Shown here: positions 55,710-60,153 of the stretch, piece after piece
Position numbering within the stretch: position 1 is the stretch's first letter
Layout: every line of letters begins with the position of its first letter
Assembly (NCBI GenBank): GCA_947499725.1
Contig: CANMPK010000004.1
Coordinates: 124,001-188,000 of the forward strand
Direction of reading: 5' to 3'
Origin: an uncultured Paracoccaceae bacterium
Lineage (GTDB): Bacteria > Pseudomonadota > Alphaproteobacteria > Rhodobacterales > Rhodobacteraceae
Length of the DNA: 64,000 nucleotides
Made by a program: the position numbers and the translations under genes
The notes under the pieces: model-generated
The model's input: the letters and a program-made list of their open reading frames with translations, nothing else
Told to the model about the DNA's origin: nothing
The model's database searches: none

Positions 55710-56348
55710 ATGACACAGCCGCGCCCGCAGTTGAAAGATGCCTATTCGCTGATCCTAGAGGCGATTGATACCGGAACCTTTAAGCCGGGTGATCGGTTGG
55801 TGGAAAGCGATCTGGCAGAGAAGTTTGGCGTGTCGCGCACGCCAATTCGCGAGGCGTTGCAGCGTTTGGAAACGCAGTCTTTGCTCGCGCGTGATGGGCG
55901 TAGCTTGATTGTGGCCTCTTTGGATCACAATCAACTGTCTGAACTATACGCGGTGCGCAGTGAACTGGAAGGTTTGGCGGCGCGTTTGGCCGCGCGTCAT
56001 GCTACGCCAGAAGAGGTGCGTGTGTTGCGTAATATGGTGAATGAAGATCGCCGCATTACCGATGACCCCATGGCTTTGGCGCGGGCGAACCGCCGTTTCC
56101 ACAAGATGATCCATTTGGCGTCTCATAACCGTTATTTGGTGCAACAGCTTGATTTGGTGCATCGTTCCATGGCTTTGATGTCGAGCACGACATTGGCTGC
56201 GGAAGGGCGCAGTTCGGTGGCGATGGATGAGCACGAAGCCATTGTGAACGCGATCGAGAAGCGTGATGAAGATGGTGCGTATGACGCGCTGAAGGTGCAT
56301 ATCTCGAGTGCCTTTGAGACACGCTTGACCCTAACTGCTGACAGCTGA
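55710..56348 (+). CDS. GntR family regulator, FCD (FadR) subgroup
   Basis: 212 residues from the ATG at 55710 (TTGGAGACC upstream); an earlier frame start has no site. N-terminal winged helix: LKDAYSLILEAIDTGTFKPGDRLVESDLAEKFGVSRTPIREALQRLETQSLLARDG, then an all-helical FCD domain with the metal-ligand pattern ...RFHKMIHLASHNRYL...MDEHEAIVNAIEKRD. Targets are unknown: the nearby genes are a nucleotidase on one side and the glycosyltransferase, convergent, on the other; its stop overlaps that of the glycosyltransferase by 18 bp. Confidence 0.93.
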   Translation: MTQPRPQLKDAYSLILEAIDTGTFKPGDRLVESDLAEKFGVSRTPIREALQRLETQSLLARDGRSLIVASLDHNQLSELYAVRSELEGLAARLAARHATPEEVRVLRNMVNEDRRITDDPMALARANRRFHKMIHLASHNRYLVQQLDLVHRSMALMSSTTLAAEGRSSVAMDEHEAIVNAIEKRDEDGAYDALKVHISSAFETRLTLTADS

Positions 56349-58220
56349 AAATTCTGCGTTTTGTCCTTCGGGGGTTTGGCCGTGCGTGGTTTTATCCCAG
56401 TAGAATGGGACGACAATCAGCTCTAGCAGGGCTTTGTAAGCGCCGAGCGTAGCCAATGGAAAGTAAATGGGAAGCGTGAGCGCCCACCCAATCAATCCAT
56501 TTCGATTTTGCCCAATCATCGAGACTGCCGCGATCAGAATATCGAGAAGTGACACGAAGAGAAAGAGGCCGATTGCGCTGTATAGGACTGGCTTTGGTAA
56601 ACCTTGAAACCAAGGCAGGGAAAAGCCGAAAGCGAGGCCCCAAAAGCTCCAGATAAATGGGGCCAGCAAGAACTGGGATAGGGTGCTGAGGAAGATCGCA
56701 TTGAAACCCAAGAACTTACGCAGACCTAGTCGGCGCCCTAGTCGCAACGGGCGCCGCATATGGACTAAATAGGTGATCATGTAGCCTTTTAGCCAACGTG
56801 ATCGCTGTTTGATCCAGCGGTACATCTGGCAGTTTGCTTCTTCTTGCGTAACTGTCGCTGCGAGTTCGGTGCGATAGCCATAGCTGCACAAGCGAATTCC
56901 TAAATCGGCATCTTCCGTGACGTTGTGGGCATCCCATCGCCCGATTTTTTCGAGGATGTCCCGGCGGAAATAGAGTGTTGTGCCGCCGAGTGGTATTGCC
57001 GCGCCAAGCCGCGACATGCCACGTAGGACAATGCGGAACCACATCGAGTATTCCAAAGTAAAACAACGCGATAGCCAGTTTGTGTAAGGGTTGTAGTAGT
57101 CTAGGATGCCTTGCAAGCACGCCACATCTTTGTCGGCATGGGCAAATTGAAGTGCGATGGTTTCAAGCTGATCTGGGGCAGGGGCGTCTTCGGCGTCCCA
57201 GATGCCGATAATGTCGCCCTTACAAAAATCGAGTGCATAATTCATTGCGCGCGGTTTTGTGGTCAAGTCGTCGCCTTCAGGAACACGCACTGTCCGAATC
57301 CAATTGGGCAGATCTGTTGCCGCCAGAGTGTCTTGGGTGAGATGGTCTTTTTCTTCCAGCACCATCACGACATCTAGCAAAGCCTTTGGATAGGTAAGGC
57401 GCGAAAGGCGCCTGATAAGCGCGCCTGCGATTTCGGTTTCTTTGTAAAGCGGCACGAGAACGGAAATATGCGGTAGGTTTTCGCCCATCGGAAGTCTGTC
57501 AGGGGGCTTTCGTGGAGATTGACTGGCGGCGAATGCGAAAACTTTCATAAAAGCCGTCATGCTTTGCATGGCAACGGCGAGGAATGTCAGGGAGATCACG
57601 GCAAGGCTGGTCTCGGCCGTGAACGACAGGATGCACATCGCCAGTAAGGCGGAAAACCCTATGTAGCGCAGAACAGGTGCGTTGCCCCAAGAGCGACAGC
57701 TTTCCGAATCCGCCACGCAGGTTTCAGCATGGGTTAGTAGGTGCAATCGGTGGGTTTGAGCCAGATAGGCTAGAATAGTGTCTTCCGGAGCGAGCACGAT
57801 CTGGGCCGATTGAAGTTCACTCTGGTATTGGCTGCGAAGTTTTTCGATGGTTTCGGGCCGGCTGGTCGCGAGCATCAGGGTTCCATGTATGTTTACCCAT
57901 GGAATTACGGCGTGGCGAAGGCAAACCTCTGGGGGAAGAATGGATTGCAGTCGATCATCTGGCGGGGCTTGCGAAAGATCCACGATGGGTGCGCCAAAAT
58001 ATGTAGATTGGGCCCTTAGCCTTTGGTTTGCAGTGATTGTGCCCTCGGCGAACAATATGTTCGCGATCGGAGAGTTCAATTGGTTTTGTTGCTGCGCAGC
58101 GTCAAACAGCTGTTCAGAAGTGATGGCGCCATCTTCTAAGAGGTAACGGCCAATGCCCAAATGGCGGTCAGGCTGAAGGCCGAAAACCGGTGTGAATTTT
58201 CCAAGAGGGGTATGTTCCAT
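56331..58220 (-). CDS. MshEN-domain processive glycosyltransferase (family 2)
   Basis: 629 residues from the ATG at 58220. The N-terminal ~125 residues are a GspE_N/MshEN-type domain (GIGRYLLEDGAITSEQLFDAAQQQ, and NILFAEGTITANQRLRAQ), a domain known to bind c-di-GMP in other proteins. Two membrane helices follow (about 188-225), then the catalytic GT2 domain: PHISVLVPLYKE, DAEDAP, VTEDADLG (TED) and QRSRW at about 472-476, the signature of processive synthases like BcsA and XagB. Four more helices come at the C-terminus. It likely makes and exports a polysaccharide under c-di-GMP control; product unknown. Confidence 0.85.
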   Translation of the reverse strand: MEHTPLGKFTPVFGLQPDRHLGIGRYLLEDGAITSEQLFDAAQQQNQLNSPIANILFAEGTITANQRLRAQSTYFGAPIVDLSQAPPDDRLQSILPPEVCLRHAVIPWVNIHGTLMLATSRPETIEKLRSQYQSELQSAQIVLAPEDTILAYLAQTHRLHLLTHAETCVADSESCRSWGNAPVLRYIGFSALLAMCILSFTAETSLAVISLTFLAVAMQSMTAFMKVFAFAASQSPRKPPDRLPMGENLPHISVLVPLYKETEIAGALIRRLSRLTYPKALLDVVMVLEEKDHLTQDTLAATDLPNWIRTVRVPEGDDLTTKPRAMNYALDFCKGDIIGIWDAEDAPAPDQLETIALQFAHADKDVACLQGILDYYNPYTNWLSRCFTLEYSMWFRIVLRGMSRLGAAIPLGGTTLYFRRDILEKIGRWDAHNVTEDADLGIRLCSYGYRTELAATVTQEEANCQMYRWIKQRSRWLKGYMITYLVHMRRPLRLGRRLGLRKFLGFNAIFLSTLSQFLLAPFIWSFWGLAFGFSLPWFQGLPKPVLYSAIGLFLFVSLLDILIAAVSMIGQNRNGLIGWALTLPIYFPLATLGAYKALLELIVVPFYWDKTTHGQTPEGQNAEFSAVSS

Positions 58221-58225
58221 TAAAA

Positions 58226-58257
58226 AACTCCTCAACCTGCGAAGAGGATGAGGAGTT
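58226..58257 (-). terminator. carA terminator whose 3' arm carries the glycosyltransferase ribosome binding site
   Basis: On the minus strand AACTCCTCA and TGAGGAGTT form a perfect 9-bp stem around a 14-base loop, followed directly by TTTT and A-ATG of the glycosyltransferase gene. It is 30 bp after the carA stop. GAGGAG in the 3' arm is the only Shine-Dalgarno, 7 bases from the start codon. Confidence 0.75.
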
Positions 58258-58286
58258 AATCTTAAATCAAACTTAAGATGCGCTCT

Positions 58287-59450
58287 TTAAGCGGATTTTG
58301 CTTCGTCCATGAAGGCTGAAAACCGTTCAAACAGGTAGAAGCTGTCCTGTGGGCCAGGGCTTGCTTCTGGGTGATGCTGAACGGAATAGACTGGGCGATC
58401 CTCGATGCGAATGCCACAGTTAGAGCCGTCAAACAAAGATGTATGGGTTTCTTTCACGCCTTTTGGCAGGCTCTGACCGTCCACAGCGAAACCGTGGTTC
58501 ATCGAAGTGATTTCAACTTTACCTGTTTCGTGGTCTTTCACCGGGTGGTTCGCACCGTGGTGGCCGTGGTTCATCTTGATGGTTGTTGCGCCAAGCGCCA
58601 GTGCCAGCATTTGGTGGCCCAAGCAGATGCCAAAGACCGGCAGGTCTTTGTTTTCCAGAACCTTCTGGATCATCGGCACGGCGTATTCGCCAGTCGCGGC
58701 AGGGTCGCCCGGTCCGTTGGACAGGAACACACCGTCTGGATTATGCGCCAGCACCTCTTCGGCTGTCGCTGTTGCTGGCAAAACTGTTACGTCACAGCCA
58801 GCAGAGGCCAAGCAGCGCAGGATGTTGCGTTTTGCGCCAAAGTCCACAGCGACCACTTTGTGACGCGGGTTTTCTTGCTTTGGGTAGCCATCTGGCCAAG
58901 CCCAACGCATTTCGTTCCATTGGTAGCTTTGTGCGCATGTCACATCTTTGGCGAGGTCCAGACCTTCCAAACCTGCAAAGGCACGGGCCTTTTCGACCAG
59001 AGCCGCAACATCAAATTTGCCTTCTGGATCGTGTGCCAATGCCGCGTGCGGCGCACCCTGTGCGCGGATCGCGCGGGTCAGGCGACGTGTGTCTACACCG
59101 CCGATAGCGATACGGTTACGAGAGGCGAGCCAATCAGACAGGTTGGATGTAGAGCGCCAGCTGGATGGCTCTGTTGGATCCCACTTCACAACCATGCCGG
59201 CTGCAACAGGATCACCTGTTTCATCGTCTTCCGCGTTTACACCGGTGTTGCCGATATGAGGGAAGGTGAATGTCACGATCTGGCCCGCATAAGATGGGTC
59301 AGTCATGATCTCTTGGTAGCCTGTCATCGCTGTGTTGAAGCAAAGCTCGGCGGTGGTCTCACCAGTGGCTCCGAAACCGCGGCCGTAGAATACGGTTCCA
59401 TCGGCTAGAGCAAGGCAAGCGGTTGGCGTGTTTGAGGGCACCTGGGCCAT
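58287..59450 (-). CDS. carA: Carbamoyl-phosphate synthase small subunit
   Basis: 387 residues from the ATG at 59450 (GGAGAG 10 bases upstream); the open frame runs 23 codons further without similarity. CarA hydrolyses glutamine to supply ammonia for carbamoyl phosphate, used for arginine and pyrimidines. It has FGATGETTAELCFNTAMTGYQEIMTDPSYAGQIV at the N-terminus and a class I amidotransferase domain with the nucleophile in VFGICLGHQMLALALG, and HPEASPGPQDS. carB is not adjacent. It is divergent from yqeY. Confidence 0.98.
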   Translation of the reverse strand: MAQVPSNTPTACLALADGTVFYGRGFGATGETTAELCFNTAMTGYQEIMTDPSYAGQIVTFTFPHIGNTGVNAEDDETGDPVAAGMVVKWDPTEPSSWRSTSNLSDWLASRNRIAIGGVDTRRLTRAIRAQGAPHAALAHDPEGKFDVAALVEKARAFAGLEGLDLAKDVTCAQSYQWNEMRWAWPDGYPKQENPRHKVVAVDFGAKRNILRCLASAGCDVTVLPATATAEEVLAHNPDGVFLSNGPGDPAATGEYAVPMIQKVLENKDLPVFGICLGHQMLALALGATTIKMNHGHHGANHPVKDHETGKVEITSMNHGFAVDGQSLPKGVKETHTSLFDGSNCGIRIEDRPVYSVQHHPEASPGPQDSFYLFERFSAFMDEAKSA

Positions 59451-59642
59451 GGCAGCGACTCTCCGGGGTGTGTGTAGATAAATTGTCGGGAAACTAAGTC
59501 GCGGGGGCTCTGAGGTCAAGGTCTGATGTGAAAGTCAAATCTGTTTGAAAACAATGACTTATGTTTTTTGATGATCGCTTGCGCCAGAACGGTGAATTCA
59601 GTATTGTCCAAGGCTCTGATCAAAGAATGGGGATTTCTTGAT

Positions 59643-60133: not shown

Positions 60134-60153
60134 AAGGGGCCGTTTGGCCCCTT
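60134..60153 (+). terminator. Terminator downstream of yqeY
   Basis: AAGGGGCC-GTTT-GGCCCCTT, a perfect 8-bp stem followed by TCGTTTTTGAT, 32 bp after the stop. Confidence 0.88.

Follow-up and report, generated by a model that had tools for sequence, protein, structure and literature searches.

The stretch of DNA analysed here, referred to as the window, comprises 64,000 nucleotides from an uncultured Paracoccaceae bacterium and carries on its minus strand the carA gene, directly followed by a glycosyltransferase gene in the same direction. The identities of the two products given in an initial annotation agree with the Pfam matches (MshEN and GT2 for the glycosyltransferase, CarA for its neighbour), and the junction described there, with a 9-bp stem, a 14-base loop, a tract of six T and a GAGGAG motif seven bases before the ATG, was reproduced in every detail. 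The features of the locus are as follows.

58287..59456, minus strand: carA, carbamoyl-phosphate synthase small chain (Pfam CPSase_sm_chain and GATase), upstream of the glycosyltransferase gene and in the same direction
58262..58276, minus strand: CtrA-type box TTAAGTTTGATTTAA, a full TTAA-N7-TTAA site between the carA stop codon and the stem
58257-58249, minus strand: 5' arm of the hairpin, AACTCCTCA; promoter DNA that the own mRNA of the gene would lack with the predicted start
58250-58245, minus strand: -10-like hexamer CATCCT, 12-17 nt after the box, the fixed position in the family according to the column profile of 161 junctions
58248-58235, minus strand: hairpin loop, TCCTCTTCGCAGGT, 14 nt, including CCTC
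58238, minus strand: predicted start of transcription at an A, in the hairpin loop and 24 nt beyond the box, placed by the -10 profile and the 5'-RACE spacing of PMC6180460
58234-58226, minus strand: 3' arm of the hairpin, TGAGGAGTT, containing the Shine-Dalgarno motif
58233-58228, minus strand: Shine-Dalgarno motif GAGGAG; seven bases separate it from the ATG at 58220
58227-58222, minus strand: tract of six T sharing the last two bases of the 3' arm; may cause intrinsic termination of RNA running through from carA in the window's clade
56331..58220, minus strand: MshEN-GT2 glycosyltransferase gene, 629 aa (Pfam; NCBIfam and PDB relatives)

The glycosyltransferase is a GT2 protein with cellulose-synthase-like matches, and its MshEN region is placed at the N-terminus by Pfam. 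Binding of c-di-GMP by this protein appears likely, albeit not certain; the NCBIfam model of the c-di-GMP motif yields 31.5 bits, which is under its cut-off of 38. E. coli NfrB, a c-di-GMP-activated glycosyltransferase (NCBIfam NF008411), resembles the protein in being a glycosyltransferase with an MshEN-type region, where the model matches weakly, but represents a different family: NF008411 scores 28.7 bits, with 1170 required, and the matched region is N-terminal in the window's protein, as opposed to its location near the C-terminus in the NfrB model. One in-frame stop codon each is present within the glycosyltransferase matches of five of the listed members of the family (G080, G143, G176, G131 and G047), which may be pseudogenes or contain sequence errors.

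The carA stop codon ends at 58287, and 29 nt lie between it and the first paired base of the stem. A 46-nt piece with the 9-bp stem folds as RNA with -16.8 kcal/mol (z -3.95), which was equalled by none of 200 shuffled sequences, and the fold places GAGGAG in the 3' arm, as expected from the earlier statement that the stem covers the ribosome site. A competing pair between CCTC in the loop and GAGG had also been suggested; it is indeed an entry of the terminator scan (58246-58228, loop limit 8) but loses in the RNA fold, which prefers the 9-bp stem. Having a U tract behind a stem that contains G+C, the window's junction has the composition of an intrinsic terminator. Elsewhere in the window, an 8-bp inverted repeat at 60134-60153, just past the end of the YqeY ORF, is terminator-like on both strands.

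Ahead of the stem lies the repeat ATCTTAA-gtttgat-TTAAGAT, the hairpin initially recognised in the fold; this assignment was abandoned in favour of the TTAA-N7-TTAA box contained in it, which explains the repeat better as a CtrA site. The CtrA site has been given as TTAA-N7-TTAA for Caulobacter (PMC4287350) and as TTAAC-N5-GTTAAC for Dinoroseobacter (PMC7232146), and the genome under study encodes a CtrA of the Rhodobacterales type (NF045991, 417.7 bits at a cut-off of 350). A set of 187 loci with carA directly upstream of the glycosyltransferase gene contained 180 distinct junctions, 165 of them non-redundant. Of these 165, 146 contain a perfect TTAA-N7-TTAA site, while the best site deviates at one base in 17 and at more than one in two, so that at least seven of the eight bases are present in 163; mononucleotide shuffles produced about three sites with one mismatch and no perfect one. 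Exact TTAA half-sites at any spacer other than N7 were found in 0-7 of the 165 junctions, i.e., N7 alone stands out. As judged from the sequences, the TTAA-N7-TTAA element of the carA-glycosyltransferase junctions is a CtrA site, and CtrA would be expected to bind there. Note that the CC typically trailing the second half is missing from the window's own box, which accordingly does not match the stricter pattern that requires it; this pattern occurs 13 times in the whole genome compared to six times for the reversed control.

The promoter seems to travel with the glycosyltransferase gene, since six of eight loci in which this gene is located elsewhere than behind carA keep the full box. For the reverse case, 18 genomes of the family lacked a glycosyltransferase match; 13 of them were searched for carA, yielding 11 usable genes. 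No full box is present in the 160 nt after the carA stop codon in any of these 11 genomes, and the best site reaches seven of eight bases in three of them, two of which are A+T-rich. In L314, a carA locus from a genome with no detected glycosyltransferase, TTAACCCCGCGTTAG remains with seven of the eight box bases, which may be left over from the promoter of a gene since lost. Another box, TTAA-N7-TTAACC, is found in the window's own genome on contig C5 near 111864 (L213) between a divergent ORF, which we take to resemble flagellar flgI, and a CtrA-like response regulator, and is likely a flagellar CtrA promoter. Among the matches listed for CtrA literature combined with glycosyltransferase, carA, Rhodobacterales or exopolysaccharide, nothing referred to the carA-glycosyltransferase junction, and neither "glycosyl" nor "carA" occurs in the searched main text of PMC4046655, PMC7232146, PMC2877005 and PMC12363192.

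When 161 junctions are aligned by their boxes, additional signal appears at A13, A14, T17 and T18 after the box. Among 158 junctions, 66 have an A-N3-T pair at positions 13/17 and 52 have one at 14/18, compared to 0-12 for the other registers that were counted. Box, -10 signal and the fixed spacing between them are thus directly visible in the computed profiles. A spacing that fits these peaks is described for the CtrA-activated fla2 promoters of Rhodobacter sphaeroides (PMC6180460), where the CtrA site lies near -35 and 5'-RACE located the transcription starts 23-24 nt past the box, +1 being a purine and -11 an A; those promoters are flagellar, and the parts of that study used here mention no read-through hairpin. 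If the start corresponds to position 24, position 13 becomes -11. A purine is present at position 24 in 90 of 158 junctions, a mild preference family-wide, and the window's box would by arithmetic lie at -38 given the predicted start, next to a value of -39 for the box of the Caulobacter ctrA P2 promoter (PMC4287350). The window's -10 element is weak, and a sigma-70 scan listed no promoter at its junction. From the spacing, transcription of the glycosyltransferase gene is predicted to start near 58238, inside the hairpin loop. With a start at this position, the 5' arm would belong to the promoter DNA, the gene's own mRNA would hold only the 3' arm within a leader of about 18 nt, and the hairpin could be formed only by RNA read through from carA.

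The consequences of this arrangement for folding were assessed with 158 of 184 junctions, the latter number including some genomes met in two collections; junctions were dropped when the box had fewer than seven of eight bases, when no start codon followed 29-75 nt after the box, or when the sequence after the box was more than 70% identical to another. Fold-back is defined here as the interaction of the RNA upstream of the predicted start with the leader, the RNA being split at the predicted start. Its mean was -11.86 kcal/mol (n=158), compared to -5.92 (sd of the mean 0.22) after exchange of the upstream parts among genomes and -6.84 (0.20) after mononucleotide shuffling of these parts. Individually, 84 of the 158 junctions rank within the best three of 60 swaps, 50 of these being equalled by none, and 74 miss that rank; the window's junction is matched in strength by none of its 60 swaps and by one of its 60 shuffles. 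The initial annotation regarded loss of the stem in relatives that keep both genes as evidence against its view: this applies only in part, 13 of the 158 junctions showing no excess at all (rank 30 or worse of 60), next to the 84 with a high rank. Moving the split to 18, 21, 23, 25 and 28 nt gave excess values of -4.2, -5.4, -6.0, -6.1 and -5.8, which peak near the predicted start, although the curve is flat. Fold-back was not significant for six loci with the glycosyltransferase gene not behind carA (ranks 15, 17, 40, 14, 4 and 28 of 60), in two of which the upstream gene is called in the opposite direction.

The fold-back is predicted to make the ribosome site less open. The openness calculated for the Shine-Dalgarno zone is 0.25 in read-through RNA, 0.38 with swapped upstream parts and 0.49 in own-start RNA, and own-start RNA is predicted to have the more open zone in 140 of 156 junctions; the respective predictions for the window are 0.08 versus 0.32. 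The start codon is also less open in read-through than in own-start RNA (113 of 156 junctions), but against swapped 5' parts its openness in read-through RNA does not drop (79 of 156 lower, p=0.61). As had been recommended in the initial annotation, the stem was inspected for compensatory changes, and these are present: six of its nine pairs have changed on both sides within the window's genus, and 75.9% of the cells of the 9-bp stem pair, compared to a shuffle mean of 63.7 with 0 of 500 shuffles as high and to only 38-57% after sliding the stem by 1-3 columns. These values refer to six of nine genus junctions with readable carA in a MAFFT alignment (L005, L007 and L009 were left out), which is only partly reliable, as the arms differ greatly. 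Between genera the hairpin sequences vary widely, yet the pairing persists, and together with the family-wide excess this shows that compensatory changes have preserved the pairing to the leader in the family.

The explanation which we consider probable is that the glycosyltransferase gene is driven by a CtrA promoter of its own and that a hairpin hiding its ribosome site insulates it from carA read-through, probably acting as a terminator as well in this clade. A CtrA-activated promoter between carA and the ATG would consist of the box at 58276-58262, the -10 element at 58250-58245 and the start near 58238. Own-start mRNA would have the short leader with the 3' arm only and a more open Shine-Dalgarno motif, whereas carA-derived RNA, which is presumed to be formed, would contain both arms and have its Shine-Dalgarno motif folded into the stem and silenced; in the window's clade, stem and T tract should also terminate part of this RNA. 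The hairpin would in this manner shield a CtrA-timed, probably c-di-GMP-binding enzyme from the constant transcription of carA.

The initial annotation interpreted the same elements in the opposite sense, with a glycosyltransferase made from carA read-through RNA and expressed only upon both read-through of the terminator and opening of the stem, the latter sensing the supply of pyrimidines or arginine. Such a switch would fit the neighbours in the same direction and the coverage of the Shine-Dalgarno motif by the stem, but a dependence on read-through conflicts with the gene's own conserved CtrA-type promoter and the predicted start inside the hairpin, and the divergence of the hairpin sequences between genera is unlike that of a ligand-binding RNA. 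Moreover, no Rfam match reached the gathering score in 57900-58700, the best one amounting to 22.4 bits versus the required 50. A minus-strand start between 58220 and 58250 had itself been named as an observation against the switch, and the start predicted here falls into this interval. Owing to the own promoter inside the hairpin and the lack of a known RNA family, the switch was rejected and is regarded as extremely improbable.

A simpler alternative would be an ordinary compact terminator of carA, in which the overlap with the ribosome site reflects economy and its covering is without function. The six T after the stem in the window and terminator-like hairpins in six of eight non-redundant genus junctions agree with this, and the earlier identification of an intrinsic terminator stands at the level of the genus. 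It does not extend to the family, where only 17 of 165 junctions (the six included) contain such a hairpin, a 6-mer with four or more T precedes the start in only 24 of 158, and just one of the 11 carA ends without glycosyltransferase gene is terminator-like, even with loops of up to 20. Strong leader pairing also persists without a T tract, e.g., in L003 and L005. These counts make termination a probable trait of the clade around the window, and leader pairing the wider one; a plain carA terminator was discarded as the whole story in view of the family-wide counts of hairpins and T-rich 6-mers, and we consider it unlikely. Hairpins at 3' ends can also act as RNase processing sites or protect the end of a transcript, roles that are established in general, and the inverted repeat might accordingly serve the carA RNA with the hiding of the ribosome site as a by-product. 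This fails to explain why the excess pairing peaks with a split near the predicted start, and 10 of the 11 carA ends without glycosyltransferase gene lack a terminator-like hairpin in the stretch scanned, making a role for carA RNA an improbable alternative.

Insulation by the hairpin, as favoured above, raises the question of other CtrA promoters, for which 174 loci with a box and an ATG 36-58 nt after TTAACC were collected as controls, 60 as returned and 114 picked by hand from the matches listed, with omission of glycosyltransferase entries and some others. Removal of 57 loci without a long ORF start and of 14 representing the glycosyltransferase itself left 103. The fold-back excess of -6.13 for the glycosyltransferase (n=158) compares to -1.92 for controls behind genes in the same direction (n=61, p=0.004) and to -0.09 for those whose upstream gene points the other way (n=41, p=0.74); for one control no direction was called, and the calls used open frame and GC3 only. 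The glycosyltransferase junctions differ from the same-direction controls with p=8e-9; same- and opposite-direction controls differ with p=0.029 when pooled, with p=0.055 in the first half and p=0.16 in the newly fetched half. Fold-back is thus strong at the carA-glycosyltransferase junction, the strongest and most widely kept case in this study, and only suggestive elsewhere. Among the controls, L335, L256, L296 and L410 show strong leader fold-back behind genes called in the same direction, and some of them precede ORFs with hydrophobic N-termini. It is conceivable, if somewhat doubtful at present, that hairpins straddling promoters represent a recurring insulator in Rhodobacteraceae, in which CtrA promoters behind same-direction genes evolve a spacer and -10 region complementary to the leader, such that only RNA started at the CtrA promoter is translated.

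If the proposed insulation is right, a tightly timed gene could adjoin a constantly transcribed one without leaking, as it would be the promoter DNA that encodes the arm closing off the ribosome site of transcripts from elsewhere. The MshEN glycosyltransferase would become a conserved candidate target of CtrA in Rhodobacteraceae and a candidate tie between the CtrA phosphorelay and a probably c-di-GMP-responsive polysaccharide enzyme, whereas reading the junction as a coupling to carA would misdirect experiments.

The mechanism as such is already known from other systems. For sigG of B. subtilis, a large hairpin has been proposed to block translation of RNA read through from PspoIIG, whereas RNA started at the sigG promoter is unable to form this hairpin (PMC5942855), and the likeness to the carA junction would lie in exactly this use of a hairpin against read-through from upstream. 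As far as described in that source, the sigG hairpin has 20 or more pairs and precedes a sigma-factor gene of a Firmicute, in contrast to the 9-bp stem at a CtrA-type promoter in the Rhodobacteraceae; the carA junction further differs in the compensatory changes that keep its pairing over many genera and in the T tract of the window's clade. Late genes of phage T4 and I-TevI likewise have their ribosome sites sequestered in hairpins on early and middle RNA from upstream promoters, while the late promoter gives a translated RNA (PMC2988022). According to the sections of that article considered here, the T4 case serves the temporal control of a phage, whereas the gene of the window is chromosomal, of the CtrA type and preceded by a housekeeping gene. 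By comparison with these two systems, what appears to be new is an instance of the mechanism at a CtrA-type promoter that is kept by compensatory change across a bacterial family.
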